Shown: positions 7,459 through 42,531 of the stretch, one piece after another | Position numbering within the stretch: the first letter of the stretch is position 1 | Layout: the number at the start of each line of letters is the position of its first letter | NCBI GenBank assembly: GCA_018830285.1 | Contig: JAHJSB010000054.1 | Coordinates: 1-42,531 of the forward strand | From: Alphaproteobacteria bacterium | Lineage (GTDB): Bacteria; Pseudomonadota; Alphaproteobacteria; Caulobacterales; Hyphomonadaceae | Length of the DNA stretch: 42,531 nucleotides | Direction of reading: 5' to 3' | Made by a program: the position numbers and the translations under genes | The notes under the pieces: generated by a model | The model's input: the letters and a program-made list of their open reading frames with translations, nothing else | What the model was told of the DNA's origin: nothing | The model's database searches: none

Positions 7459-8982
7459 TTAAAGCTCCATTGGGGTTTTGGCTTTGGACCGCTTGTCCCG
7501 GCCGAACAGGCCGAGTTCCGTGCGCCCGCCAGAACAGTCATTGCCGAAAGTAAATCCGCACTCACCGCGCATTTCAAATGCATCTTCCTGCGATTCCCGG
7601 TGGGTTGTAGGGATGACGAAGCGATCCTCGTAGTTGGCGATCGCCATGTAGCGGTACATTTCATCGATCTGACGGGCGGTGAGGCCCACCTTCTTGGCGG
7701 TGGGGTGATCGATCACCCCTTCAATCGTCTTGGCCCGCATGTATTTGCGCATGGCCATCATTCGTTCGAGCGCCAGAACGACCGGTTCTTCCTTGCCGGC
7801 GGTCAGCATGTTGGCAAGATAGCGGACTGGAATACGCATGCTGGAAACATCCGGCATATCCGCATCGGTTTCGAGCGCGCCCGCAGCCACGGCCGACTGG
7901 ATCGGAGAGAGAGGTGGCACATACCAGACCATGGGCAGCGTGCGATATTCCGGATGCAGCGGAAACGCGACCTTCCACTCCATCGCCATCTTGTAGACTG
8001 GACTCGCCTGCGCCGCTTTCAGCCAGGCTTCCGGAATCCCATCCAGTCGCGCTTGCGCGATAACAGCCGGATCATTCGGATCCAGGAAAACATCGAGCTG
8101 CGCTTGATAGAGATCCTTTTCGTCCGGCGTGCTGGCTGCTGCTTCGATCTTGTCGGCATCGTAGAGCAAGACACCGAGATAGCGGATCCGCCCGACGCAG
8201 GTTTCCGAACAGACAGTCGGTTGGCCAACCTCGATGCGCGGATAGCAGAAGGTGCATTTTTCCGACTTTCCGGATTCCCAGTTATAGTAGACTTTCTTGT
8301 AGGGGCACGCCGAGACGCACATCCGCCAGCCGCGACACTTGTCCTGATCAATCAGGACGATGCCGTCCTCTTCCCGCTTGTAGATCGCCCCTGACGGGCA
8401 GGCCGCCACACATGTCGGATTCAGGCAGTGTTCGCACAAGCGCGGCAAGTACATCATGAAGGTTTGCTCGAAGGCGCCGTAGATAGCCTTTTCCACCCCT
8501 TCGAAATTGTAATCTGCACTGCGCTTTTCAAACTCGCCGCCAAGGATTTCCTCCCAGTTGGGGCCCCACTCGATCTTCTCCATGCGCTGACCCGTGATCT
8601 TCGATCGGGGGCGCGCGGTCGGGAACGCTTTCATCTCAGGCGCGGTCTGGAGATGCGCATAGTCGAAATCGAAGGGTTCATAATAGTCGTCGATTTCGGG
8701 CAGGTCCGGATTGGCAAAGATCTTGGCGAGAATGCGCCATTTTGCGCCCATTTTCGGTTCTATCCGGCCATTCGCCTTACGCCGCCAGCCACCATTCCAG
8801 CGCTTCTGGTTCTCCCAGTCTTTCGGAAAACCAATGCCCGGCTTGGTCTCGACATTGTTAAACCAAGCGTATTCAACTCCCTCCCGGCTCGTCCATACAT
8901 TCTTGCATGTTACCGAACAGGTGTGACACCCGATGCACTTGTCGAGGTTGAGGACCATTCCAATCTGAGCACGGATTTTCAT
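7459..8982 (-). CDS. narH: Respiratory nitrate reductase beta subunit (Fe-S)
   Basis: NarH carries electrons from NarI to NarG through three 4Fe-4S clusters and one 3Fe-4S cluster. The 507-residue protein has the four Cys groups: 'CIGCHTCSVTCKNVW' at the N-terminus, 'CEHCLNPTCVAACP', 'CRGWRMCVSACPYKK' (Trp in place of one Cys, as in the 3Fe-4S site) and 'CTFCYPRIEVGQPTVCSETCVGR'. It overlaps the narG stop by 4 bases and leads into narJ after two bases. Confidence 0.97.
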   Translation of the reverse strand: MKIRAQIGMVLNLDKCIGCHTCSVTCKNVWTSREGVEYAWFNNVETKPGIGFPKDWENQKRWNGGWRRKANGRIEPKMGAKWRILAKIFANPDLPEIDDYYEPFDFDYAHLQTAPEMKAFPTARPRSKITGQRMEKIEWGPNWEEILGGEFEKRSADYNFEGVEKAIYGAFEQTFMMYLPRLCEHCLNPTCVAACPSGAIYKREEDGIVLIDQDKCRGWRMCVSACPYKKVYYNWESGKSEKCTFCYPRIEVGQPTVCSETCVGRIRYLGVLLYDADKIEAAASTPDEKDLYQAQLDVFLDPNDPAVIAQARLDGIPEAWLKAAQASPVYKMAMEWKVAFPLHPEYRTLPMVWYVPPLSPIQSAVAAGALETDADMPDVSSMRIPVRYLANMLTAGKEEPVVLALERMMAMRKYMRAKTIEGVIDHPTAKKVGLTARQIDEMYRYMAIANYEDRFVIPTTHRESQEDAFEMRGECGFTFGNDCSGGRTELGLFGRDKRSKAKTPMEL

Positions 8983-11900
8983 TGTGCGCCCTCCATTTGC
9001 GAGGCCGGCTCTTCGAGCCAGTCGACATTTGCCATTTTGCGGATGACCACGAATTCATCCCGGTTTGAGCCAACTGTGCCGTAATAGTTGAACCCGTAGG
9101 ACAGCTGGGCATATCCACCGATCATGTGGGTCGGTTTCAGGATCGTCCGCGTGACCGAATTATGGATCCCGCCGCGTTTTCCAGTGATTTCCGATCCAGG
9201 CGTATTCACGATCTTCTCCTGTGCGTGGTACATGAAGATCGTGCCTTCCCGGATTCGCTGGGATACGACGACGCGAGCCGTCAGTGCGCCATTCGCGTTG
9301 AACACCTCCACCCAGTCATTGTCGACAAGGTCTGCACGCTTCGCATCAGTCTCCGACAACCAGACAACCGGACCACCGCGGTTCAATGTCAGCATCATCA
9401 GATTGTCGGAATAGGTCGAGTGGATGCCCCATTTCTGGTGCGGCGTGATGAAGTTCAGCGTGATCTCCTTGTTACCGTTTGGCTTGTCGCCCTGGACGAA
9501 CGTTGTCTTGAGATCGATCGGAGGCTTGTAAACAACAAACCCCTCTCCGAATGCGCGCATCCAGTCATGGTCCTGGTAGAGTTGCTGGCGTCCCGTCAGG
9601 GTCCGCCAAGGGATCAGTTCGTGGACGTTCGTATAGCCGGCATTATAGCTGACATGTTCGCTCTCGATGCCTGACCATGTCGGAGAAGAAATGATCTTGC
9701 GCGGTTGGGCGACGATGTCACGGAACCGGATCTTCTCGTCTTCCTTGGGCAGGGCCAGATGCGCGTGATCACGTCCGGTCTGCTTTTCGAGCGCATGCCA
9801 AGCCTTGACGGCGACCTCGCCATTGGTTTCCGGTGCAAGCATCAGGATCGTCTCGCAGGCGTCGATATCGGAATCGATGCGCGGTTGGCCCTTGGCGACG
9901 TTTTCATCGAGCACGCGCCCATTGAGCGAACCGAGATTGGCCACATCATGCGCCGTGTCCCAGCCAATCCCCTTGCCGCCATTGCCAAGTTTTTCGAGGA
10001 GCGGGCCGAGTGAAGTGAATTTCGCATAGGTTTGGGAATAGTCCCGCTTGACCACACTGATCTGCGGCATGGTCTGACCGGGGATCGGTTCACTCCCGTC
10101 GGTCAGCCAGTCCGTAACGCCCGCTGCCTGGGCAAGCTCTCCGGCAGTGTCGTGCTGTATCGGTGTGAGGACGACATCGGTCACCGCATTGAGCACTTCC
10201 GGTGCCACTTCCGAGAACTTACGGGCGAGGCCTTTGAATATCTCCCAGTCCGACTGTGATTCCCATGCTGGATCGACGGCCGCACCCAGGGGGTGGATGA
10301 ACGGGTGCATATCGGACGTATTGAGATCGTTCTTCTCGTACCAGGTGGCCGTGGGCAGAACGATATCGGAATAGACCGCAGTGGTAGACATGCGGAAATC
10401 GATACACACGAGCAGGTCGAGTTTCCCTTTAGGGGCGTCCTCGTGCCATTTGACCGTCGTCGGTTTCACACCGCCGGTCTCTCCGAGGTCCTTGCCCTGC
10501 ACGCCGTGATCGGTTCCGAGCAGATGCTTGAGGAAATATTCATGCCCCTTGCCCGATGAACCGAGCAGGTTGGAACGCCAGACGAACATGTTACGCGGCC
10601 AGTTGGCTTCATGATCCGGATCCATGCACGACATTTCGAGATCGCCGGATTTCAGAGACTTCACGACATAGTCCTTCGGATCCATCCCTGCCTTTTCAGC
10701 GAGGGCTGCAATTTCGATCGGGTTCGTTTTGAGCGCTGGCGCAGAAGGCAGCCAGCCCATGCGTTCGGCTTTGGCATTGTAATCGATGAAACTACCGGTC
10801 CAGTCGCCCTCAGGCGCTGTCGGTGACAGGATTTCGCCGATAGGAACGGTCTCATAGCGCCACTGGTCAGTATGTGCATAAAAGTATGAGGTCGAGTTCT
10901 GTTGACGCGGCGGGCGCACCCAATCGGTCGCAAAGGCAAGCGGCGCCCAACCCGTCTGCGGGCGCAGTTTCTCCTGACCAACATAGTGCGACCAGCCACC
11001 ACCAGACTGGCCAACACACCCGCACAGGACCAGCATATTGATCACCGCGCGATAGTTCATGTCCATATGGTACCAGTGGTTCATGCCCGCACCGATGATG
11101 ACCATGGACTTCCCATTGGTCTTTTCCGCATTGGTAGCGAACCCTCGCGCGACCGCGATGACCTGCTCGCGCGGGACTGAGGTGATCGCTTCGGCCCAGG
11201 CCGGCGTGTAAGGTGCTGGGTCGTCGAAATCTTTCGCGAGGTGCTCGCCGCCATAGCCTTGATCGACGCCGTAGTTCGCCATCAGGAGGTCATAGACGCT
11301 GGCCACCAGGGTTTCGGCGCCGTCAGCAAGCTTCATGCGCTTGACAGGAATGTTGCGGGTCAGCACGTCCGGATGATCGGTGGAGGCAAAGCCATTGCTG
11401 GCAGAGTTGGCAAAATAGGGGAAACGGACGCTGGCGACATGGTCCTCGACGCCCTTCAGGCCAAGGCGCAGCTTGATCTCTTTGCCCTTGCCATCGCGTT
11501 CCTCAAGGTTCCACTTGCCTGTGTCTCCCCACCGAAACCCGATCGAGCCATTCGGGACAACAACCTTGCCCGTCGTCTCGTCGAGCCCGACTGTCTTCCA
11601 TTCGGGCTTGTTCTCTTCCTTGAGCGCACCATCGAAATCCGATGCGCGCAGGAGACGCTCAGGCACATAGCCGTCTTCTTGTTCCTGCAGGCGAACGAGT
11701 AATGGCAGGTCACTATACTTGCGGATGTAATCGCGGAAGTAAGGTACATCGCGATCACGGTGATACTCTGTCAGGATGACATGCCCAAATGCCATGCCGA
11801 GGGCCGCATCCGTGCCCTGCTTGGCCGCAACCCAGACGTCCGAGAATTTCGATGCCTCCGAATAATCCGGGCATATGACCACGGATTTGACACCCTTGTA

Positions 11901-24804: not shown

Positions 24805-25627
24805 GGGGGGTATTGTCAGGGGAACCGGTCTTGAGGCGACATATCCAGGCGTCTAGCTTCAGGAAATGGCCAAGAACCCGTTTCGTTACTTCAAGACTTC
24901 GCCCGAAATCATCCAGCTAGGCGTGCTGATGTACGTCCGATTTCCGCTCTCGCTTCGGAATGTCGAAGACCTTCTCCACGAACGCGGCATTGATGTCTGT
25001 CACGAAAGCGTCCGCCTATGGGTCGACCGGTTCGGGACTTATTTCGCTCACAAGATCAGGAAGCGGCGGGCCGAAGCGATGCGCCGGAGCCCGCAATGGC
25101 AGTGGCACCTGGATGAGGTGTTCGTCAAAATCCGGGGCGAGCGACACTATCTCTGGCGCGCTGTGGATCATGAAGGGGAAGTGCTGGAATCCTATGTCAC
25201 GAAGAAGCGGGATAAGGCTGCTGCATTGAAATTCCTAAAGAAAGCCATGAAGCGGTACGGGAAACCGCATGTCGTGGTGACGGACAAATGCCCCTCCTAT
25301 CGGGCCGCGATGAAAGTCATCGGAAATGAGAGGCGCCAGGAAACAGGACGCCATCTCAATAATCGCGCCGAGAACTCTCACTTACCATTCCGAAGGCGAG
25401 AGCGGGCCATGTCCCGTTTCCGGCGGATGCGAAGTCTGCAGAAGTTCGTCTCAATCCATTCGTCAGTGTACAATCACTTCAACTTCGAAAGGCACATCAA
25501 CTCCCGAATACGGTTCAAACAGAAACGAGACGCCGCTCTTCGCGAATGGCGCGACCTTCTCGTCGCCTAGCACCTGCTCGTCCGCGAATTATGGAGACGG
25601 GTTCGCATTAGCCTGACAGCACCCTCC
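24805..25627 (+). mobile_element. IS6-family insertion sequence, intact copy
   Basis: About 823 bp, a normal IS6 length. The proposed tips are GGGGGGTATTGTCAGG (24805-24820) and, read on the minus strand, GGAGGGTGCTGTCAGG (25612-25627), identical at 13 of 16 positions. The right tip coincides exactly with the point where the neighbouring integrase gene loses family similarity, which supports the boundary. One transposase gene fills the element. Confidence 0.8.
24866..25570 (+). CDS. IS6-family DDE transposase
   Basis: A 234-residue transposase. The N-terminal helix-turn-helix covers 'LSLRNVEDLLHERGIDVCHESVRLW', the typical IS6 start. Catalytic acids are D83 ('WHLDEVFVKIRG'), D140 ('VVVTDKCPSY') and probably E169 ('NNRAENSHLPFRRRE'). 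Start and stop are intact and the protein is full length, so the element is probably active and could supply transposase to the damaged partner copy. Confidence 0.95.
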   Translation: MAKNPFRYFKTSPEIIQLGVLMYVRFPLSLRNVEDLLHERGIDVCHESVRLWVDRFGTYFAHKIRKRRAEAMRRSPQWQWHLDEVFVKIRGERHYLWRAVDHEGEVLESYVTKKRDKAAALKFLKKAMKRYGKPHVVVTDKCPSYRAAMKVIGNERRQETGRHLNNRAENSHLPFRRRERAMSRFRRMRSLQKFVSIHSSVYNHFNFERHINSRIRFKQKRDAALREWRDLLVA

Positions 25628-33503: not shown

Positions 33504-34349
33504 GAACGGCATTGTCAGGGGAACCGGGCTTGAGGCGTCCGATCCAGGCGTTTAGCCTCAGGAAATGACCAAAAGCCCCTTCCGCTACTTCAAAACATCG
33601 CCCCAGATCATCCAGCTAGGCGTACTCATGTATGTCCGATTCCCGCTCGTCCCTTAGGAACGTTGAAGACCTTCTCCACGAACGTGGGATCGATGTCTGC
33701 CACGAGAGCGTCCGCCTATGGGTCGACCGGTTCGGGACTTATTTCGCTCACAAAATCCGGAAACGCCGGTCGGAATCGATGCGACGTAGCCCCCAATGGC
33801 GGTGGCACCTGGACGAGGTCTTCGTGAGCCGAAGGCAGGCGTAGCCAACATCCGTGGGAAGACTCACTACTTATGGCGCGCTGTCGATCACGAAGGTGAA
33901 GTACTGGAATCTTACGTTACAAAGAGCCGGGATAAAGCTTCCGCATTGAAATTCCTGAAGAAAGCCATGAAGCGGTACGGGAAACCGCATGTCGTGGTGA
34001 CGGACAAATGCTCATCATATCGTGCGGCGATGAAAGTGATTGGGAATGAAAGGCGTCAGGAAACGGGTCGGCATCTGAACAATCGCGCTGAGAACTCACA
34101 CCTGCCCTTCCGAAGACGGGAACGAGCCATGTCCCGTTTCCGGCGCATGCGAAGTCTGCAGAAGTTCGTTTCAATCCATTCGTCAGTGCACAATCACTGC
34201 AACTTCGAAAGGCACATCAACTCCAGAATACGGTTCAAACAGAAGCGAGACGACGCTCTTCGCGAGTGGCGCGACCTTCTCGTCGCCTAGCACCTGCTCG
34301 TCCGCTAATAACGGAGACGGGTTCGCATTAGACTGACACCCCACCCTCC
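33504..34349 (+). mobile_element. IS6-family insertion sequence, degenerate copy
   Basis: The same type as the left element and in the same direction. The left tip is near 33504 (CATTGTCAGGGGAACCGG follows) and the right tip near 34349 (minus-strand GGAGGGTGGGGTGTCAG). The sequence is clearly diverged from the left copy, mostly at synonymous positions, but has stretches of perfect identity (for example 47 bp within the helix-turn-helix/DDE linker). Its transposase is broken. Confidence 0.8.
33565..34290 (+). pseudogene. IS6-family transposase, two frame-disrupting insertions
   Basis: The frame starts at 33565 (MTKSPFRYFKTSPQIIQ) and meets a stop at 33655. Compared with the intact copy, one extra base near 33649 shifts the frame just after 'VRFPL'. 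A further insertion of about 20 bases at about 33826-33845, after 'LDEVFV', adds another stop. The two together total 21, so the last part (from 'NIRGK' to 'LLVA') returns to the original frame. Catalytic Asp/Asp/Glu codons are still present, so decay is recent. Confidence 0.9.
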
Positions 34350-34711
34350 AGACTGTAAGGGCAGAATGTACATGATGATGATCAGTATAGGGCCGTTACC
34401 GGGATACTCCGCGGTGGTGTCAGGGTGTCAAGAGCCCGATAGTCTGAAAGGAACCCGGAAGCGGACTTCATCAGGGCCAGCGGTCACATGCCGCGCAAAC
34501 AGGCCGGACACATGACCGCATCCCTCCGATTATCCCTCGCTCAAACTTTGTGCTTGCGGAACCGTCGCTGTCCACACATCACACCACCGAAATGAGGCCG
34601 CACTCGATCGGCTTGCGTGTTTCCAAGGCATAGTTGACCCAAGTTGCCATTGCCCTTCCACAAGCCGGGCGATTGTGCTTTCGTATGCAAATGGTAAGTG
34701 GGAGATGGAAT
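34350..34711. other. Gap between right IS6 copy and caspase-like gene
   Basis: About 360 bp. It contains a short IS-tip-like sequence GGTGGTGTCAGG (34413-34424) and the ribosome site of the next gene (GGAG at 34701-34704). I see no gene in it and no confident promoter. Confidence 0.4.
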
Positions 34712-36646
34712 ATGCGTTGGCTCTTGGTAACATTCCTGTTCATTGCCGCTGCTTCGAGTGCTATTGCGGAAACGCGGATGGCACTCGTCATCAGTCAGAC
34801 CGAATATCGAAGTGCAACGCTTTCGCGTGTCAGCTCGGCTGAGTCGGAAGCCAACGCCATTGCCGATTCTCTGACGGCCACGGGTTTCGATGTCATACGA
34901 GTTCGAAATCTGTTCAAGACCCAATTGAATGGAGAACTGGATTCATTCCGCAAGAAGGTAGACAGAGCAGGCCCAGATGCGATCGGCTTTGTCTACTATA
35001 CCGGACACGGCGTTCAGAATCCCGAGACCAAGGAGAGTTTTTTACTCGGTATTGATTCAGAGATCGAGGTTCCGTCAGATCTGGTCCGCTATGGCGTCAA
35101 CCTGGAGATCGAACGAGACATGTTTGCCGCAACGGGTGCGAAGGCCGTCTTTATGGTGTTCGATGCCTGCCGTAACGTGCCGTCCCTGCCAGGGTTCAAG
35201 TCCGGAACGAAAGGACTGTCTGTCACGAGCGCTCAGACGAACATGCTGATCGCCTATGCAACAGATGCCGGCGACGTCGCCCAGGAAGGCCTTTATGCGC
35301 CGGTTTTGGCCAACGAAATTCGTCGTCCGATGATGAATTCCGGCATGGCGTTCTTGAATACGCAATTGCTCGTTGCCCAGCAGAGCGGCGAAAAGCAGCG
35401 CCCCTGGACCGACAACAAGATATACAAACCGATTTGCTTTGCCGGATGCGGCGACGAGGCCAGCGCAACGGCCGTCTCAATGTCTGGCGCACCCAAGCAG
35501 ATACAATCTGCATCGCCAGATGTCTTGTCCGCCTACGAGGCGATTGGAAGAGCCTACTTTCAGTCCATAACAGGCGGTAGCGGCTCGCATGCGGCAGGTA
35601 ATGCCGATTTTTCATCTATGGGGTGCAACCCGTCTACCGTTTGGGATGAGAATAGCTGCCAGGCGATCGTCGCGGACAACGAAGATGGAAAGACACATCT
35701 GATGAATGCGCTGTCAGCGGACAACATCGATGAGCTTATCCCGCTGAGTGATCTCAAACGGATCTATGCCGATCTTGCAGACCCGACCTTTGAGCCGACC
35801 CGCCAGATGCTTGGTTATCTCAGCACACCTGGCAATGGCTGGTACAGCTGGCTTGAAGGCGAAGGGCAGGCCAAGCAATTGCTGCGTGAACGTTTGAAGC
35901 TCGGCGATCCCTGGGAAATTGCGAAGGCCTACGCTCAGGCGATCACAGGTGGCACCGGCCCGAAGGCCAGCGGCATTGTTGATTTCAACGAGCTTGGCTG
36001 TGGTCCTTCGAGCGTCTGGGACGAAGCGCGATGCCAGAAGATCGTTCTAGATGGAAAAGACGGCAAGTCCTTCCTGATGAACGCGATCCGGCCTGACACT
36101 ATTGATCAGCTTCTCCCCCGCCGGGACCTTGTCCGGATTAGTTCCGATCCGGCATACAAGGACACCTGGTTCATGCTGAAGAATCTGAGCACGGCCGGGA
36201 ATGGCTGGTACCAGCAACTCGAGGGAGAAGGCAACGCCAAGCAATTGCTCCGAGACCATCTGACTCTGTGGGATCCTGTATTGGTCGGGCGGGCGTATTT
36301 CCAAGCGATTTCGGGCGGCTATGGACCGACTTCCGTTGAAGAACTCGATTTTTCGCTTATGGGCTGCAACGAGGCGACAGTGTGGGACGAATCGAGCTGC
36401 CAGGCCTTCGTTTCAGCCGGCAAGGACGGCAAGACGTTCATGATGGAGTCGCTCAATCAGCACACGATCGATGACCTCTTGCCGATGAGTGACCTGAGAC
36501 GCGTATATTCGCAGGACGGTTACCAAGCCACACGAGATATGCTCTTCAACCTGAGCGCAGCGGGCAACGGCTGGTATGATTACCTGGAAGGCCAGGGCGG
36601 TCCTAAGGAGCTTCTCAGACGGCGCATCATCGAGGCGCAGAACTGA
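34712..36646 (+). CDS. Exported caspase-like peptidase with three C-terminal repeats
   Basis: A 644-residue protein. Residues 1-19 are a signal peptide (MRWLLVTFLFIAAASSAIA), so it is probably periplasmic or secreted. Residues about 20-245 form a C14 caspase/metacaspase-type domain with H99 in 'FVYYTGHGVQ' and C153 in 'VFDACRNVP', the His/Cys dyad. Residues about 273-637 are three tandem repeats of about 122 residues, each with 'AYxQxIxGG', 'GC-x10-C' around 'VWDE', 'DGKxFLMNA', 'IDxLLPxxDL' and 'GNGWYxxLEGEG'. The paired Cys (305/316, 430/441, 552/563) could form disulfides outside the cytoplasm. I do not recognise the repeat family. Start at 34712 has a GGAG site; an earlier in-frame Met at 34634 would spoil the signal peptide. 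Convergent with the protease downstream. Confidence 0.85.
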   Translation: MRWLLVTFLFIAAASSAIAETRMALVISQTEYRSATLSRVSSAESEANAIADSLTATGFDVIRVRNLFKTQLNGELDSFRKKVDRAGPDAIGFVYYTGHGVQNPETKESFLLGIDSEIEVPSDLVRYGVNLEIERDMFAATGAKAVFMVFDACRNVPSLPGFKSGTKGLSVTSAQTNMLIAYATDAGDVAQEGLYAPVLANEIRRPMMNSGMAFLNTQLLVAQQSGEKQRPWTDNKIYKPICFAGCGDEASATAVSMSGAPKQIQSASPDVLSAYEAIGRAYFQSITGGSGSHAAGNADFSSMGCNPSTVWDENSCQAIVADNEDGKTHLMNALSADNIDELIPLSDLKRIYADLADPTFEPTRQMLGYLSTPGNGWYSWLEGEGQAKQLLRERLKLGDPWEIAKAYAQAITGGTGPKASGIVDFNELGCGPSSVWDEARCQKIVLDGKDGKSFLMNAIRPDTIDQLLPRRDLVRISSDPAYKDTWFMLKNLSTAGNGWYQQLEGEGNAKQLLRDHLTLWDPVLVGRAYFQAISGGYGPTSVEELDFSLMGCNEATVWDESSCQAFVSAGKDGKTFMMESLNQHTIDDLLPMSDLRRVYSQDGYQATRDMLFNLSAAGNGWYDYLEGQGGPKELLRRRIIEAQN

Positions 36647-36654
36647 AACGGCGT

Positions 36655-36670
36655 CTTCGGCCAGCCGAAG
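36655..36670. terminator. Hairpin between convergent genes
   Basis: CTTCGG-CCAG-CCGAAG forms a perfect 6-bp stem just after the caspase-like gene stop and before the end of the convergent protease gene. There is no clear T-run on either side, so its use as a bidirectional terminator is only likely. Confidence 0.45.
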
Positions 36671-36709
36671 TGGCTAGCCGGGGACTAGATCGGACTAAGC
36701 CACCTCGTT

Positions 36710-38266
36710 CTACTTGATGATCTCGTATTGCGCGCGGCCGGACGACCAATTTTCCAGGTCGGAACTCGTGCGAGACGCCGATATAATTTGCTTCTGAAGT
36801 CTCAAGGCATAGTCCGTCGATTGAGCTCTGACGCCGATTGTCTTGTTCATTTCCGGCATGGAGTCGCCGATAAGCTCAACCGAAGGCGGCAATACAATTG
36901 CGAATATCTCGTTCTTCTCGGATGAGACGGACGGATTCGACAGGTTTGCCGTGAACCGGAACTTGTGTTGATAGGATTCATCCGGAATCAGAACTGTTTG
37001 CCTAGGTGAGACCAATGTGTCGCGTGCATCAATGAATCGGTTTGGATAGATGGGCGTTATCGTTCCATCCGCGCCTTTGTCCAGCACCCAGAGGCGCCCG
37101 CCAATTTTTGAGGTGACAGAAATCCGCATTTCCTGACCGACACTTATCGTCCCGGCTGGAATCGTGGTGATCTGAATGTTGTCTTTCGATTGATCGAACA
37201 GACTGTAAATTGCCAGCAGGGAGTCCTGGCTTACAGAAATCGCTGTTTCCGGATTCGCGCTGACAAATTTTGCGTCCGGAACGTGAGACAGGACCCAGGC
37301 TACGTGGTTTGAGATGCGCGTGTACACGCCCGGCCAGCCGGCCTCGGCACAACCGAACCCGAAGCTCACAACACCGACCTGATAAGCGCGTCCTTTTTCA
37401 TCGAGGGCTGCCATCGGACCTCCGGAATCGCCCTGACATGAATCGATTCCGCCATCATCAAATCCGGCACAGATCTGGTCGGATGGGTCATATGCCATCC
37501 CTGAGAAGGTAGCCGAACATGCATAGGGCGATTTCATTGGAACCATCGCATGCTGCATGTATTGGGATCCGGCATACCCATCTCGCCCGGAGCGTGTGTA
37601 AATGAATGGCACGATCGATGAGGAGGCGTACTCCAGCCCAAAACCAGCGACAAATCCACGACCAAAATACTGGTCAGGATCTGAGCCGGCGCCGTTTGAC
37701 AGGCGTGCAACCGGACCGTTCCATGTCCCGTCGAACCGGACAAGTGCGATGTCGGATTTCGGGCCACGGAAATCACTGAGCGTGGGGGCATCATTGGATG
37801 CCCGGTAGTCAGGCGGCACGACGACTTCGACTATCTTAAAAATATTCTTTGTGTCGGTCTTTGAAAGATCCGAGACGCCCATAACCAAGTCAAGGCGGCC
37901 AAATGAGGGACGGGAGATATCGCCATTGGCGTCCTTGTAGAGATCCGGTACGCAGTGAGCCGCCGTAAGCGCCCAATGCGGGCTGATCATTGTCGCGCCG
38001 CAGAAATGAGTGGTCTGTCGACTGGTCGTCCCGCGGATCGTGCCCAGATATGGCCATTCGCCGGAACGTGCGCGTGTTCCACCAACCATTTTCTCGTTCG
38101 CGCGTGACACAGGTGTGAGGGTCTCCGTCCAGTCGGATTCTGCCAGGCCCGGTTCTGTGACGGTATTGCTTATGTCTTGATCGCCTGTCTGCGCGCTGGA
38201 CGAACAACCTACGATGAGCAGGATGGTACACAGCGCTTGTAGGCGTACAAAATTCAAAAGAGTCAT
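36710..38266 (-). CDS. Trypsin-like lipoprotein with C-terminal DUF4384-like domain
   Basis: A 518-residue protein. The lipobox I-V-G-C21 ends a short signal sequence; the Ser after it suggests sorting to the outer membrane. A linker of about 38 residues ends at K59, followed by M60-V-G-G, the position of the activating cut in S1 zymogens; cutting there would free the protease from its anchor. The S1 domain has H104 ('LTAAHC'), D172 ('SDIALVRF') and S281 ('GDSGGP'), with D275 at the base of the S1 pocket, predicting cleavage after Arg/Lys. Residues about 365-465 ('GRLWVLDKGADGTITPIYPN') resemble DUF4384, a domain often fused to caspase-like domains. Divergent from the WD40-protease gene. Confidence 0.88.
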   Translation of the reverse strand: MTLLNFVRLQALCTILLIVGCSSSAQTGDQDISNTVTEPGLAESDWTETLTPVSRANEKMVGGTRARSGEWPYLGTIRGTTSRQTTHFCGATMISPHWALTAAHCVPDLYKDANGDISRPSFGRLDLVMGVSDLSKTDTKNIFKIVEVVVPPDYRASNDAPTLSDFRGPKSDIALVRFDGTWNGPVARLSNGAGSDPDQYFGRGFVAGFGLEYASSSIVPFIYTRSGRDGYAGSQYMQHAMVPMKSPYACSATFSGMAYDPSDQICAGFDDGGIDSCQGDSGGPMAALDEKGRAYQVGVVSFGFGCAEAGWPGVYTRISNHVAWVLSHVPDAKFVSANPETAISVSQDSLLAIYSLFDQSKDNIQITTIPAGTISVGQEMRISVTSKIGGRLWVLDKGADGTITPIYPNRFIDARDTLVSPRQTVLIPDESYQHKFRFTANLSNPSVSSEKNEIFAIVLPPSVELIGDSMPEMNKTIGVRAQSTDYALRLQKQIISASRTSSDLENWSSGRAQYEIIK

Positions 38267-38410
38267 GTCATCCCCCTCTTCATTTCAGACCAACAGCCAT
38301 GAGCACGGATGGCCGGCTGTCAAGGCGGTCTTAGTGTGCACCTGCGAACGGCTTGGGAGACGAAATCGACGAAGTTCGGAATTCATTCGTTTCAAGAATA
38401 ATCTGGTGCC

Positions 38411-38416
38411 TATACT
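38411..38416 (+). promoter_or_regulatory. Possible -10 element of the WD40-protease gene
   Basis: TATACT lies 40 bp before the ATG at 38456 in the 189-bp divergent gap. No good -35 hexamer sits at the right distance, so an activator may be needed or the call may be wrong. A G-rich ribosome site (GGGGGT) precedes the ATG. Confidence 0.3.
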
Positions 38417-38455
38417 GTTGGCGAGTGCATAGGCGCAGCCGGATGGGGGTAAGCG

Positions 38456-40549
38456 ATGTTTCGTATTTGGGTGCTGATGGTCGTCTTGTCATTTTCGGGG
38501 GCCTGCCGATCAGCGCCGCTGTCTCAGGATGCAAGCAATGTTTCTGTGAGATTGGCGCCGAGTGGCATCGACACCGTAACCCCCGATGCCTCAGATGCAG
38601 AGATTGATGCGGAGAGGACGAGTGAAAGTTGGAGGCGCGAAAAGGAATGTGCTGCCCACCCTGAGCGAACTTGTCCAAGCCGCGGCATCAACGCTCGAAT
38701 TGTGCCGATTTTTGCCGCACCATTTCAAGCGCAGATTTATTATGGCGGTCCGTTCAGCCAGCGTGACGTATCGCTGCTGGCTTCGAAAAACAGAGCCGGT
38801 TGGGAGGCGCGACATTATTGCGGGGGATCTCTCATTGCGCGCAACTGGGTTCTGACAGCGGCTCACTGTATCGATGATGATCTCGTTCGTCGCGGCTATG
38901 GCATACGGCTCGGAGCTGGCGATATTTCAACGGCTGACGGCGAATTCTTCAAGATTGCAGAAGTCAGGTATTTCCCCGGTTTCGTTCGCCCCGCACCGGG
39001 CAAGATCATCTACCAGCACGATATTGCATTGATCCGGCTTGCCAACGACGTCGATACGGGGCGCACGCAGCAAAACGCATCGTGGACACAAATCGCCCGC
39101 TCGCGATACGCAACCATGGTCCGCGGTGCCGAGCTTTCGCGAGATAGTGGGAAATTGATGACATGGAGCCTGGATGGCACAATTCGCATATGGGACACAA
39201 AGACGGGCCGCCTGAAGTCTACCATCGATCACGGCTGGTACATCCAAGGCGCGGCCTTGGCACCCGACGGCGACCATATTGTCAGTTGGGGCATGGGGTC
39301 CAAATTATGGGATGCGGACAGCGGAACTCTCGTGAGTGAAATTTCTGACGATTCCGACTCAGTCGCCGGGGCACAATTCAGCTTGGGTGGCTCTCGGGTT
39401 CTCGTCTGGGGCAGCAAGCCCGGTATGCTGAAACTGGTCTCCACCCTTCCCATAGGCGTTTCGAAGACTCTGATCATCGGCCGCTCGATCGATGACCTCA
39501 AAGTGTCCTCCGATGGGTCCACAGCGATTGTCCTCAGCGCAACTGGCGACTCGCGCTGGCTCAGCCAGGTAGATCTCATAAAAATGAGCGAAACATCGCC
39601 TGCTATCGAAGTATCATCGGGCTTGCCTGCAAGACTGCTCAGTCTCAAGCTGGTTGGGGACGGCCTTGATGGCTCTTACCAGCTTTCAATGATCGATGGC
39701 CCGGTCTTTGAACTCAGGTCAGTCGACGGGACCTCCGTATTGAAAGTGGACCATGGGGCCTTTCTGGTCGGCGCATCCATGTTCGACGATAACTCGCGGC
39801 TTGTAAGCTGGGGCATGGATCAAGCGGTCCGTCTCTGGGACGTCCGCAACGGAAAACAGCTTCATGCCCTCGACCAGGGCGCCTTCGTGGCTGGGGCCGA
39901 AGTCATGAAGAATGCCAAGACTGTATTGACATGGAGTCCCAGCGGGATCGGGCGCATCTGGAACGTGAACACAGGAAAGCAAGTCAAAAGTTTCGATCTT
40001 GGAAAGTATCTTCAGGGCGTGAGCTTTGCGCGCGACAGTAAACGTCTCCTTGCGTGGAATGCGGATGGCAAGGTCACGCTCCGTAATGCCAGCAATGGCA
40101 AACCCATCCAGACGTTCGATCATGCATCGCCGACGGGCGTGAGCATTGGCTACATCCGTTTCAACCTTCCAGAAAGCGAACTGGTCGCTGGTGACCCCGT
40201 CACAGCATTCGGTTGGGGAAAGGCGGCCAACATTCCCGGTGAGAAGCCGAGCGCCGTATTGCAGGTCGTTGATTTGACCGTAATCGATACGGAATCTTGT
40301 CGGTCTGAAGGAGGGTGGAACGAAAATCAGATCACCGACACCGTGTTTTGCGCCCGGAATGCCAGTTCGAAAACTTGCCGTGGAGACAGCGGTGGTCCCG
40401 TCGTGAAAGACGATAGGCTTGTGGGAATCGTCAGCTGGGGCAAGAAGACCTGCGCCACCGATGGAATGCCCAGTGTCTATACCGATGTGGCTCAATATTC
40501 CGACTGGATAGCAAAAGTTATATCTGAATCAGTCGCGCCATCCGAGTAA
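38456..40549 (+). CDS. Trypsin-like protease with a WD40 propeller inserted in its catalytic domain
   Basis: A 697-residue exported protein; the hydrophobic start (about residues 1-16) is followed by C17, an atypical lipobox. R81-I82-V83 marks a zymogen-type activation site. The first S1 barrel has C122/C138 and H137 ('LTAAHC') and D189 ('QHDIALIRL'). Residues about 205-558 are WD40-type repeats ('DGTIRIWDTKTG', 'DQAVRLWDVRNGK', 'GIGRIWNVNTGK'); five are clear and the middle is diverged, so seven or eight blades fit. The second barrel resumes at 'YIRFNLPESELVAGDPVTAFGWG' and has C615/C632, C641/C666 and S645 ('CRGDSGGP'). All expected S1 disulfides remain, so the protease should fold around the insert. 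Residue 639 (position 189 of trypsin) is Lys, so Arg/Lys cleavage is not expected. Confidence 0.9.
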   Translation: MFRIWVLMVVLSFSGACRSAPLSQDASNVSVRLAPSGIDTVTPDASDAEIDAERTSESWRREKECAAHPERTCPSRGINARIVPIFAAPFQAQIYYGGPFSQRDVSLLASKNRAGWEARHYCGGSLIARNWVLTAAHCIDDDLVRRGYGIRLGAGDISTADGEFFKIAEVRYFPGFVRPAPGKIIYQHDIALIRLANDVDTGRTQQNASWTQIARSRYATMVRGAELSRDSGKLMTWSLDGTIRIWDTKTGRLKSTIDHGWYIQGAALAPDGDHIVSWGMGSKLWDADSGTLVSEISDDSDSVAGAQFSLGGSRVLVWGSKPGMLKLVSTLPIGVSKTLIIGRSIDDLKVSSDGSTAIVLSATGDSRWLSQVDLIKMSETSPAIEVSSGLPARLLSLKLVGDGLDGSYQLSMIDGPVFELRSVDGTSVLKVDHGAFLVGASMFDDNSRLVSWGMDQAVRLWDVRNGKQLHALDQGAFVAGAEVMKNAKTVLTWSPSGIGRIWNVNTGKQVKSFDLGKYLQGVSFARDSKRLLAWNADGKVTLRNASNGKPIQTFDHASPTGVSIGYIRFNLPESELVAGDPVTAFGWGKAANIPGEKPSAVLQVVDLTVIDTESCRSEGGWNENQITDTVFCARNASSKTCRGDSGGPVVKDDRLVGIVSWGKKTCATDGMPSVYTDVAQYSDWIAKVISESVAPSE

Positions 40550-40613
40550 AAGCTATATGCTACGGCTTGCGAGCCACCGTTCGTCTTCTCCGGATGCCAG
40601 GCGAGCAGTCAAT

Positions 40614-40642
40614 CAGCAAGCCTGCTCCAAGCAGGCTCGCTG
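40614..40642. terminator. Strong hairpin between convergent genes
   Basis: An 8-bp perfect stem (AGCCTGCT-CCA-AGCAGGCT) extended by four more pairs after one mismatch. It lies between the ends of the WD40-protease gene (plus) and the small lipoprotein gene (minus). No long T-run follows on either strand, but position and stability favour a shared terminator. Confidence 0.65.
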
Positions 40643-40657
40643 ACCAAGATTGGATTT

Positions 40658-40834
40658 TCAGTTGCCGACGCGCTCGCCGCCGCCCTGGCCTTCATCTTCT
40701 TCTGTTGCCGCAGGGGCGTCAGTTGCAGCTGCAGGCTCAACGGAGGCTGACGTTTCATCGTCAACCGGCGCAAGTGTTGCGCAGGCCGACAGAACGGCAC
40801 CCGCCATCAGGATAGACAGTACACTTCGTTTCAT
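40658..40834 (-). CDS. Small lipoprotein, acidic
   Basis: A 58-residue protein with a classic lipoprotein signal: 'MKRSVLSILMAGAVLSAC', lipobox L-S-A-C18. The mature part is about 40 residues, rich in Ala, Glu, Asp and Thr and probably disordered ('ETSASVEPAAATDAPAATEEDEG'). A good AAAGGGG ribosome site precedes the ATG. It follows the TIR/TPR gene by about 32 bases on the same strand. Function unknown; it could be an envelope anchor or a small partner of the neighbouring exported proteases. Confidence 0.7.
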   Translation of the reverse strand: MKRSVLSILMAGAVLSACATLAPVDDETSASVEPAAATDAPAATEEDEGQGGGERVGN

Positions 40835-40866
40835 TATCAAGCCCCTTTGTTATCATTTTTGCGGCA

Positions 40867-42531
40867 CTATTCGAAGCCCATCTGCACCTGCAATTTTGAA
40901 AAATCGGATCGCTGGCGCAGCGGGGAAAGCATTGGGTCGATGTAGAGGTAAGTCAACCCAGAATCGCCTGCCAACCAGGCCTTGCCGAGTGCGGATATCG
41001 CTTCGTCGGATTTTCCGCTCTGCGCGAGGATCTGAGCCTGCTGATAGAAGCTACCATCACCGTATTCGTTGATGAGCGCATCCATGGCGTCATTTGCTTC
41101 TTCTTGGTGGCCAAGTTTCCAGTGTGCTACCGCAAGGCACGGATAGCGTGATAGCCCATAAGACTCCTTGGTACAGATGGCGAGCGCTTCTTCGGGGCGT
41201 CCGAGATACAACAGTGCCCGCCCTATCCTGGCGTGGGAGTCGCTCAGTTGCGGGTTCAGGATCAGAGCCTGCTCGACAGCCGCAATCGAACGCTCGTACC
41301 GACCAGCTGCATAGTGAACGAACCCGACAGCTCTGTGGATGGTCGGGTTCAGCGGATCAAGATCGCGCGCGCGTTCGATAGCAGTCAAAGCCAGTTCGTC
41401 TTGTCCGGTAGCGGATGCATAGCCTGCGAACCGTGCAAGCACCGGAGCTTCACCATTTCCAAGCTGCCGCGACTTTTCATAGGGCTTGCGCGCGGCTCTT
41501 ATCTCCAGTTGTGCCTGGAACAGCACGAAACCGAGTGTGGAATGAGCGTCAGCCAGAGACGGCGCAAGCTCCGCACCCCGATCGGCAGCCACACGGGCCG
41601 CTTCGTAGAACAGTTTGGATTTTGCTGGGCTGTCGCTGGAATTTCCAAGGACCGTCAAAGTGCGTGCTCGCGCGGAATGGGCTGCAGCGAATTTTGAGTC
41701 GAGCCGCAGGGCTGCATCGAAATGCGCCAGCGCCCGGACGTCGGTCTCGTTGCTGATGGCCGCCGTATAGAGATCATTTCCCTTGAGGTATTCGTTGAAG
41801 GCTTGTGCGTTTCTGGTCGCGCCGATCTGCGAATCTCGTGGCTCCTGAGAAACCTCTGAAGACAGGGCAGCGGTCACCGCATTGGAAATTTCGCTTTTCA
41901 CGAGAAGCAGGTCTTCCATGGATTGATCAAATGTCTTGGACCAGAGACTGAACCCCGTCGCTCCGTCAATCAGTTCGGAGTAGACGCGAATCGACTCGCC
42001 AGCCTGCTTCATAGTCCCGTCGAGAATGAATGAAACGCCGAGCTCCTTGGCTATTGAAACGGCGTCCAGTGCCTTCTTTTTAAGCGCTTCCGACGATGAC
42101 TGGGCGACGACTTTCAGGGCGGAATTGCGTGCAAGCGTGGCCCGGACTTCTGCAGCAAACCCAGCGGAGAGATAATCCTGATCGGCCTGTCCACTGACAT
42201 TGTCGAACGGGAAGACCACAAGGCCATTTTCTGTCAATTTGCGTGTCTGTGATGGCAAGGTTCGTGAAACCGCATAACCACCAATCAGGACAGCCGCCGC
42301 TGCTGCTCCGCCAAACAAAAGTCGACGCCTGCGGATAGCAAGGAAGACGGGCTCCTTGGAAGGAGGTCGGTCGGGCAGCTGACGCCCGTGCAGTGCAGCA
42401 GTCGCGCGGATTAGGTTGATGACTTCGGGGTCATTGGAGCGCCCATATGAACCCGATATGTCGATCACCTGAAACTGGCGGAACCCCAAGGGTGGTTCGG
42501 CACCATCAATCGACAAGGGAATGAGGCACCC
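40867..42531 (-). CDS. TIR - membrane - TolB-N - TPR protein, 5' end outside the window
   Basis: The frame is open to the window edge, so the N-terminus is missing; a TTG at 42516 is not a likely start. The first visible residues ('LIPLSIDGAEPPLGFRQFQV') match the C-terminal part of bacterial TIR domains. A basic stretch and one membrane helix follow ('RRRRLLFGGAAAAAVLIGGYAV'). Next comes a TolB-N/FlgO-like domain ('GLVVFPFDNVSGQADQDYLSAGFAAEV' to 'SFILDGTMKQAGESIRVYSELID'), then about seven TPR-like repeats to the end. This layout is common in alphaproteobacterial TIR or adenylate-cyclase-like TPR proteins. The TIR part would be cytoplasmic and the TPR part periplasmic. The catalytic region of the TIR is not in view, so NADase activity cannot be judged. 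Confidence 0.75.
   Translation of the reverse strand, partial: GCLIPLSIDGAEPPLGFRQFQVIDISGSYGRSNDPEVINLIRATAALHGRQLPDRPPSKEPVFLAIRRRRLLFGGAAAAAVLIGGYAVSRTLPSQTRKLTENGLVVFPFDNVSGQADQDYLSAGFAAEVRATLARNSALKVVAQSSSEALKKKALDAVSIAKELGVSFILDGTMKQAGESIRVYSELIDGATGFSLWSKTFDQSMEDLLLVKSEISNAVTAALSSEVSQEPRDSQIGATRNAQAFNEYLKGNDLYTAAISNETDVRALAHFDAALRLDSKFAAAHSARARTLTVLGNSSDSPAKSKLFYEAARVAADRGAELAPSLADAHSTLGFVLFQAQLEIRAARKPYEKSRQLGNGEAPVLARFAGYASATGQDELALTAIERARDLDPLNPTIHRAVGFVHYAAGRYERSIAAVEQALILNPQLSDSHARIGRALLYLGRPEEALAICTKESYGLSRYPCLAVAHWKLGHQEEANDAMDALINEYGDGSFYQQAQILAQSGKSDEAISALGKAWLAGDSGLTYLYIDPMLSPLRQRSDFSKLQVQMGFE

Follow-up and report, generated by a model that had tools for sequence, protein, structure and literature searches.

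Does the open reading frame described here encode one S1 protease that is interrupted by a WD40 propeller, and, if so, with which partner does such a protease work? The window in which this question arises, i.e. the whole stretch of DNA that was analysed, is one complete contig of 42,531 bases, and its features are listed in Table 1. Judged from its sequence, the protein is a single S1 protease whose halves flank a WD40 propeller, and this layout is consistent with the models. The Pfam Trypsin profile matched the protein with an E-value of 5.5e-46, but the match was split in two stretches, the better of which aligned residues 569-685 with profile positions 107-220, and several WD40 propeller models found their matches between these two stretches. 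Compared with solved proteases, residues 118-215 corresponded to barrel 1 and residues 579-689 to barrel 2 of one chain (factor D, 1dst), and both S1 parts, taken in order, fit a single S1 domain. The nesting of a WD40 propeller within an S1 domain, which had been proposed in the original prediction, is therefore borne out by the single reading frame, the split Trypsin match and the WD40 matches in between, and the same holds for the placement of the catalytic His and Asp on the first barrel and of the Ser on the second.

Table 1. Features of the nested WD40-S1 protease gene and of its neighbours in the window
Feature	Positions	Strand	Remarks
Exported S1 protease with DUF4384	36710..38266	-	Asp at position 189; common to L009
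Nested WD40-S1 protease gene	38456..40549	+	697 aa; single open reading frame without interruption
Export signal with lipobox-like Cys17 (residues 1-17)	38456..38506	+	
First S1 barrel (residues 82-200)	38699..39055	+	His137 at 38864-38866; Asp189 at 39020-39022
Linker before the propeller (residues 201-218)	39056..39109	+	Model confidence low
WD40 propeller (residues 219-555)	39110..40120	+	About 8 blades (strand count)
Linker after the propeller (residues 556-578)	40121..40189	+	Model confidence moderate
Second S1 barrel (residues 579-693)	40190..40534	+	Lys639 at 40370-40372; Ser645 at 40388-40390
Partner TIR-TM-TolB-like-TPR gene	40867..42531	-	Truncated at the contig end; the remaining 554 aa lack most of the TIR domain

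In the structure model of the WD40-S1 protein (pTM 0.71) the strand pattern fits S1. The fold searches with this protein gave match lists full of propellers, and the WD40 part was found to have the closure and the four-stranded blades of a propeller. The size of the insert follows from the distance between the catalytic Asp and the GWG motif of barrel 2, which is 397 residues here and 309-560 residues in 16 proteins with an insert, versus 36-64 residues in 19 plain S1 proteins. This yields a net insert of about 350 residues, in agreement with the approximately 355 residues estimated previously.

Like trypsin, complement factor D, the kallikreins and the plain bacterial protein P0010, the WD40-S1 protein has the same catalytic triad, three cysteine pairs and a GDSGGP loop, as well as the same strand order and C-terminal helix. 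It differs from these proteases by the extra propeller residues in its inter-barrel linker, and its family differs from them by a Lys at position 189 and the lack of a conserved activation site. H137, D189 and S645 were invariant in all 15 aligned inserted proteins, and the triad was kept in 45 of 45 aligned rows (16 inserted proteins and 29 plain S1 relatives). C122/C138, C615/C632 and C641/C666, which by position are the usual S1 pairs, were likewise invariant (15/15), as had been noted for both barrels. Trypsin has an Asp at position 189. At this pocket position of the chymotrypsin numbering the window protein has Lys639, and a Lys followed by a Thr is found here in 16 of 16 inserted proteins. 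Because of this Lys in place of trypsin's Asp, cleavage after Arg or Lys appears unlikely, and trypsin specificity was rejected for the WD40-S1 protease. The Lys is, in turn, no proof of acidic specificity, since an engineered D189K trypsin reportedly gained none. Activation at R81 was also rejected as a family feature. The predicted R81-IV site is present in the window sequence, but residue 81 is R in only 8 of the 15 aligned inserted proteins, K in 2 and neither in 5, and none of the 15 has IVGG after this residue, i.e. the Arg-IVGG pattern of a zymogen was not found among them. Taken as a whole, the original prediction has stood with respect to the architecture, but not with respect to a conserved activation site at R81 or to a lid over the cleft.

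Homologs with an insertion at the same point, in which the original prediction saw a means of verification, do exist: 16 proteins share the insertion point and the triad, with identities to the window protein that range from 94% down to about 24%. The full-length relatives P0002 to P0008 are 94, 55, 54, 39, 38, 37 and 35% identical (protein search and alignment), and the distant relative P0057, from the same protein search, is 23% identical. Among named records, the protein occurs in one MAG each of Hyphomonas (95%), Hellea and Marinicaulis, and further relatives were found in genomes G149, G164, G400, G124 and G181; the sixteenth inserted protein, L071, was added to the alignment of 15 rows. 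The distribution is patchy: among 25 genomes of the window's genus, the full protein is present in 2. When 385 genomes from across the class were searched with a profile, the matches were the window and G511, the latter over the WD40 part only. Viral contigs contained 26 matching loci, 25 of which (all but L115) have a spacing of 125-197 residues, inside one frame, between His-Cys and GDSG and hence no comparable insert. The 67 plasmid records that matched included none with a match over 80% of the protein.

To trace the origin of the insertion, a tree was built from the S1 parts of 35 proteins (16 inserted and 19 plain), from which the insert had been cut out. Not included in it were L046b (by choice), L069a (no anchor motif) and the L066 S1 genes. 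All 16 inserted proteins were located on one side of one branch, which corresponds to 1 change, and this branch was recovered in 77% of the bootstrap trees, with a support of 75/84. The tree is consistent with one insertion event, which fits but is unproven because several long branches meet in it.

The gene that follows the protease gene in the window encodes the TIR-TM-TolB-like-TPR protein of Table 1. Over its 554 aa the fragment shares 98% identity with the complete L009 protein (671 aa), which has a TIR_2 match (E 6.8e-18) and TPRs. We counted this pairing from both sides. An order-wide search of 398 genomes with the window protein (E <= 1e-20), in which the second, short S1 piece of G379 (contig of 3,254 bases) is left out of the count, gave 8 genomes; the TIR-TPR gene adjoins in all 8, next to an inserted protease in 7 and to plain S1 genes in 1 (G032). 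From the TIR side, 17 places were found in 16 of 299 genomes and an S1 gene adjoins at 12 of them, inserted at 6 and plain at 6, though these places are not all independent because five of the six plain cases belong to one genus. The five places without an adjoining S1 gene are those in G268 (an ORF without the TIR part), G293 and G247 (both near contig ends) and G259, and the second copy in G124. This adjacency contrasts with the small number of S1 matches per genome, only 5-12 in the genomes checked. Since the TIR gene is paired at 6 places with plain S1 genes instead of an inserted one, a propeller is dispensable for this pairing. A phylum search with a plain relative matched 1 of 398 genomes, and no TIR-TPR match was present among the ORFs of the 20-kb stretch around that match. 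The nested architecture and its pairing with the TIR gene are both well supported.

At most loci the two genes converge tail to tail rather than sharing an operon. In L071 and L068 the TIR and S1 genes are separated, or overlapped, by a short ORF. At L043 the protease, TIR and SLATT-like genes are consecutive and share a strand, the intervals between them being about 80 and 270 bases, while at L009 the protease and TIR genes are approximately 1 kb apart, with two ORFs between them that look transposase-like by eye. At L046 two plain S1 genes come after the TIR gene; one of them (8018-9130, + strand) encodes an S1-like protein with Asn for the catalytic Asp and the motif GDSGA, possibly an inactive partner of the product of the preceding S1 gene. 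Plain S1 genes with ADSGG for GDSGG, whose products are possibly impaired, stand beside the TIR gene in L065, L067 and L069, where the second adjoining S1 gene is normal.

A topology of the partner with its TIR domain on the cytoplasmic side is supported, and an arginine-led hydrophobic segment follows the TIR domain in 9 of 13 S1-linked TIR proteins (hydropathy cut 1.6). The motif W-V-x-x-E, whose Glu we take to be the catalytic Glu of the TIR domain, is present in 18 of 19 TIR-family rows. When the PADLOC models were compared singly and without system rules, none matched the protease at E <= 0.01, and the partner gave weak matches over its TIR part only.

Sequence distances support a co-divergence of the TIR and S1 genes beyond that of RecA. 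The correlation between TIR and S1 distances was 0.96 for 13 loci and 0.95 for the 8 WD40 loci, and in neither case was a value as high reached in 5000 permutations. The partial correlation given RecA, which is a stand-in for species history and, being a single control gene, a modest control, was 0.81 for 12 loci (0/5000) and 0.78 for 7 WD40 loci (17/5000); upon addition of L046 to these 7 loci it fell to 0.65 (51/5000). L044 was left out of the RecA analysis because G400 is without a full RecA. The L009 row contains its own protease (the S1 part of P0002 is the same in 228 of 231 residues) and the RecA from the window's genome.

SLATT-like genes were present at 11 of the 20 loci examined, either as a gene for 336-354 aa (L010, L043, L045 and L071) or as part of a larger protein with a GVTGHR N-terminus (L065-L068, L070, L072 and L122). 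We name them SLATT-like because the model matches are under the curated cut-offs, with E-values for SLATT_1 of 3.7e-8 and 1.1e-7 and with Pfam SLATT_3 and DUF4231 also just below. The GVTGHR N-terminal domain, which is fused to the SLATT-like part near the TIR-TPR gene, looks SLOG-like by eye. No SLATT-like gene was detected by tblastn in the window or L009, and a Novosphingobium plasmid carries a TIR-TPR gene and a GVTGHR-SLATT-like gene with no S1 gene adjoining. Positions 34346-42531 of the window are 96-98% identical to L009, and to the left of this block the two differ. An IS240/IS6-type copy is located at the break in both, the two copies being about 80% alike, and L009 has an additional partial IS copy to the right of the shared block. 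This block is probably mobile, and we regard its mobility as supported.

A lipobox-like Cys pattern is present in 13 of the 16 inserted proteins, the exceptions being L011, L042 and L045. Cys17 is invariant across the eight closest proteins, and the window protein has a Ser at lipobox position -3, which is unusual compared to the common Leu. In view of the export signals and the lipobox-like Cys, the nested WD40-S1 protease is most likely periplasmic. Because its gene travels with that of a membrane protein with an immune-type TIR domain, the exported protease of this marine-type bacterium and the membrane TIR protein probably act together as an envelope sensor. For this sensor we tentatively favour, with slightly less than even confidence, a model in which a protease-sensor in the periplasm acts across the inner membrane to control a TIR receptor, with the propeller as recognition or docking module. 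The exported S1-fold endopeptidase would be the periplasmic half, and the adjacent TIR-TM-TPR protein, which it would contact, the other half. The propeller may bind either the cue or the partner's periplasmic TolB/TPR part, and it would bring the protease to its substrate and influence the active site via the inter-barrel linker rather than as a lid. Proteolysis of, or docking on, the periplasmic part of the partner would switch the cytoplasmic TIR domain, which, judging by known families, would then consume NAD+ or make a nucleotide signal. Where present, the SLATT-like membrane protein may execute the response, again by comparison with known families. The system would likely serve to sense damage to the envelope or an attack by phage and to respond with growth arrest or cell death. 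It should be noted that the signalling direction, the TIR catalysis, the SLATT-like role and the defence/stress or immune purpose are elements that we infer. Rather doubtful is the reading in which the genes constitute an undescribed TIR defence or stress system with periplasmic detection, where the S1 protease senses an attack on the envelope and, through the inner membrane, switches a single-pass TIR receptor, SLATT-like membrane proteins are the executioners and the propeller controls the S1 domain.

We consider it unlikely that the protease serves envelope quality control, where the propeller would recruit proteins that are misfolded or on the surface, and the neighbouring TIR-TPR protein would do no more than report on or regulate this housekeeping activity. 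The export signals would suit such a role, as would the commonness of S1 proteases in these bacteria, with 5-12 S1 matches per genome (13 genomes counted, split halves counted twice), but the patchy presence in the genus, the IS-edged block and the SLATT-like neighbours are unlike housekeeping. Even less credible is a steric gate, in which the propeller would cover the S1 cleft and filter substrates by size. In the prolyl oligopeptidase family (S9) a propeller interrupts a serine protease in sequence, and the analogy with the WD40-S1 protein, whose propeller splits the protease between its halves, lies at that level; the S9 enzymes, however, are alpha/beta hydrolases unrelated to the S1 fold, and their propeller covers the active site. 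The WD40 insert sits in the inter-barrel linker, which in S1 proteases runs behind the molecule. For this reason there is no support for a lid over the cleft, and this speaks against the earlier view of a propeller next to the cleft that gates activity. The low model confidence of the linker before the propeller also argues against a gate, as does the finding that proteases of the plain S1 type, which have no propeller, are used next to the same TIR family. Just as improbable is a protease that acts as downstream effector, damaging the surface proteins of the cell itself or of an invader after the TIR protein has sensed first. Trypsin-like domains are listed as effectors of bacterial conflict systems in passages of two papers (PMC7159879, PMC8195603); here, however, the TIR domain, which commonly is the effector, faces the cytoplasm, and the outer TPR/TolB-like regions look like sensing ones. 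An assembly error joining two genes was rejected and has a negligible probability, because the 16 proteins, which stem from separate genomes and metagenomes, are independent copies of the same single-gene architecture.

Trypsin, caspase, TIR and SLATT domains have been reported in bacterial conflict systems (Kaur et al. 2020, PMC7159879; 2021, PMC8195603), and the same kinds of domains co-occur here, but neither the nested propeller-S1 architecture nor the TIR-TM-TPR pairing is described in the accessible portions of these papers. Likewise, a whole propeller between S1 barrels did not turn up in the accessible portions of the open-access literature. Streptomyces plasmid matches annotated as trypsin-like peptidase represent a propeller match in a trypsin-annotated multidomain protein; these trypsin/WD40 proteins differ in that the propeller part alone was matched, among the matches listed. 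Thoeris and other TIR anti-phage systems share the TIR domain, with weak ThsB and Retron-TIR model matches to the TIR part only, but our partner sits in the membrane, includes TolB-like and TPR regions and probably senses on the periplasmic side. To our knowledge, the known bacterial TIR systems sense inside the cell. The pairing suggests a testable route by which a signal from the envelope could reach a TIR enzyme in the cytoplasm. If this proposal is true, the propeller between the barrels would be a new means of controlling an S1 protease, and the WD40-S1 protein lends itself to testing whether control of this best-studied of protease folds can be exerted through the inter-barrel linker.

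Lastly, several other genes in the window deserve mention. The S1 protease with DUF4384, which is also encoded in the block shared with L009, had no match among the ORFs of the other loci examined. As its residue at position 189 is trypsin's Asp, it might be able to cleave the WD40 protease at R81 where this Arg exists, although this is speculation. A caspase-like (C14) protein, probably exported, is encoded at 34634-36646 on the + strand, near the WD40 protease and inside the shared block; it carries the motifs GHG and DACR and, C-terminally, three repeats that resemble one another, and is 98% identical to its L009 counterpart. The IS240/IS6-type copies at 24809-25624 and 33506-34340 bracket a galactose-metabolism cluster (galactokinase, uridyltransferase and epimerase), and the latter copy borders the block shared with L009.
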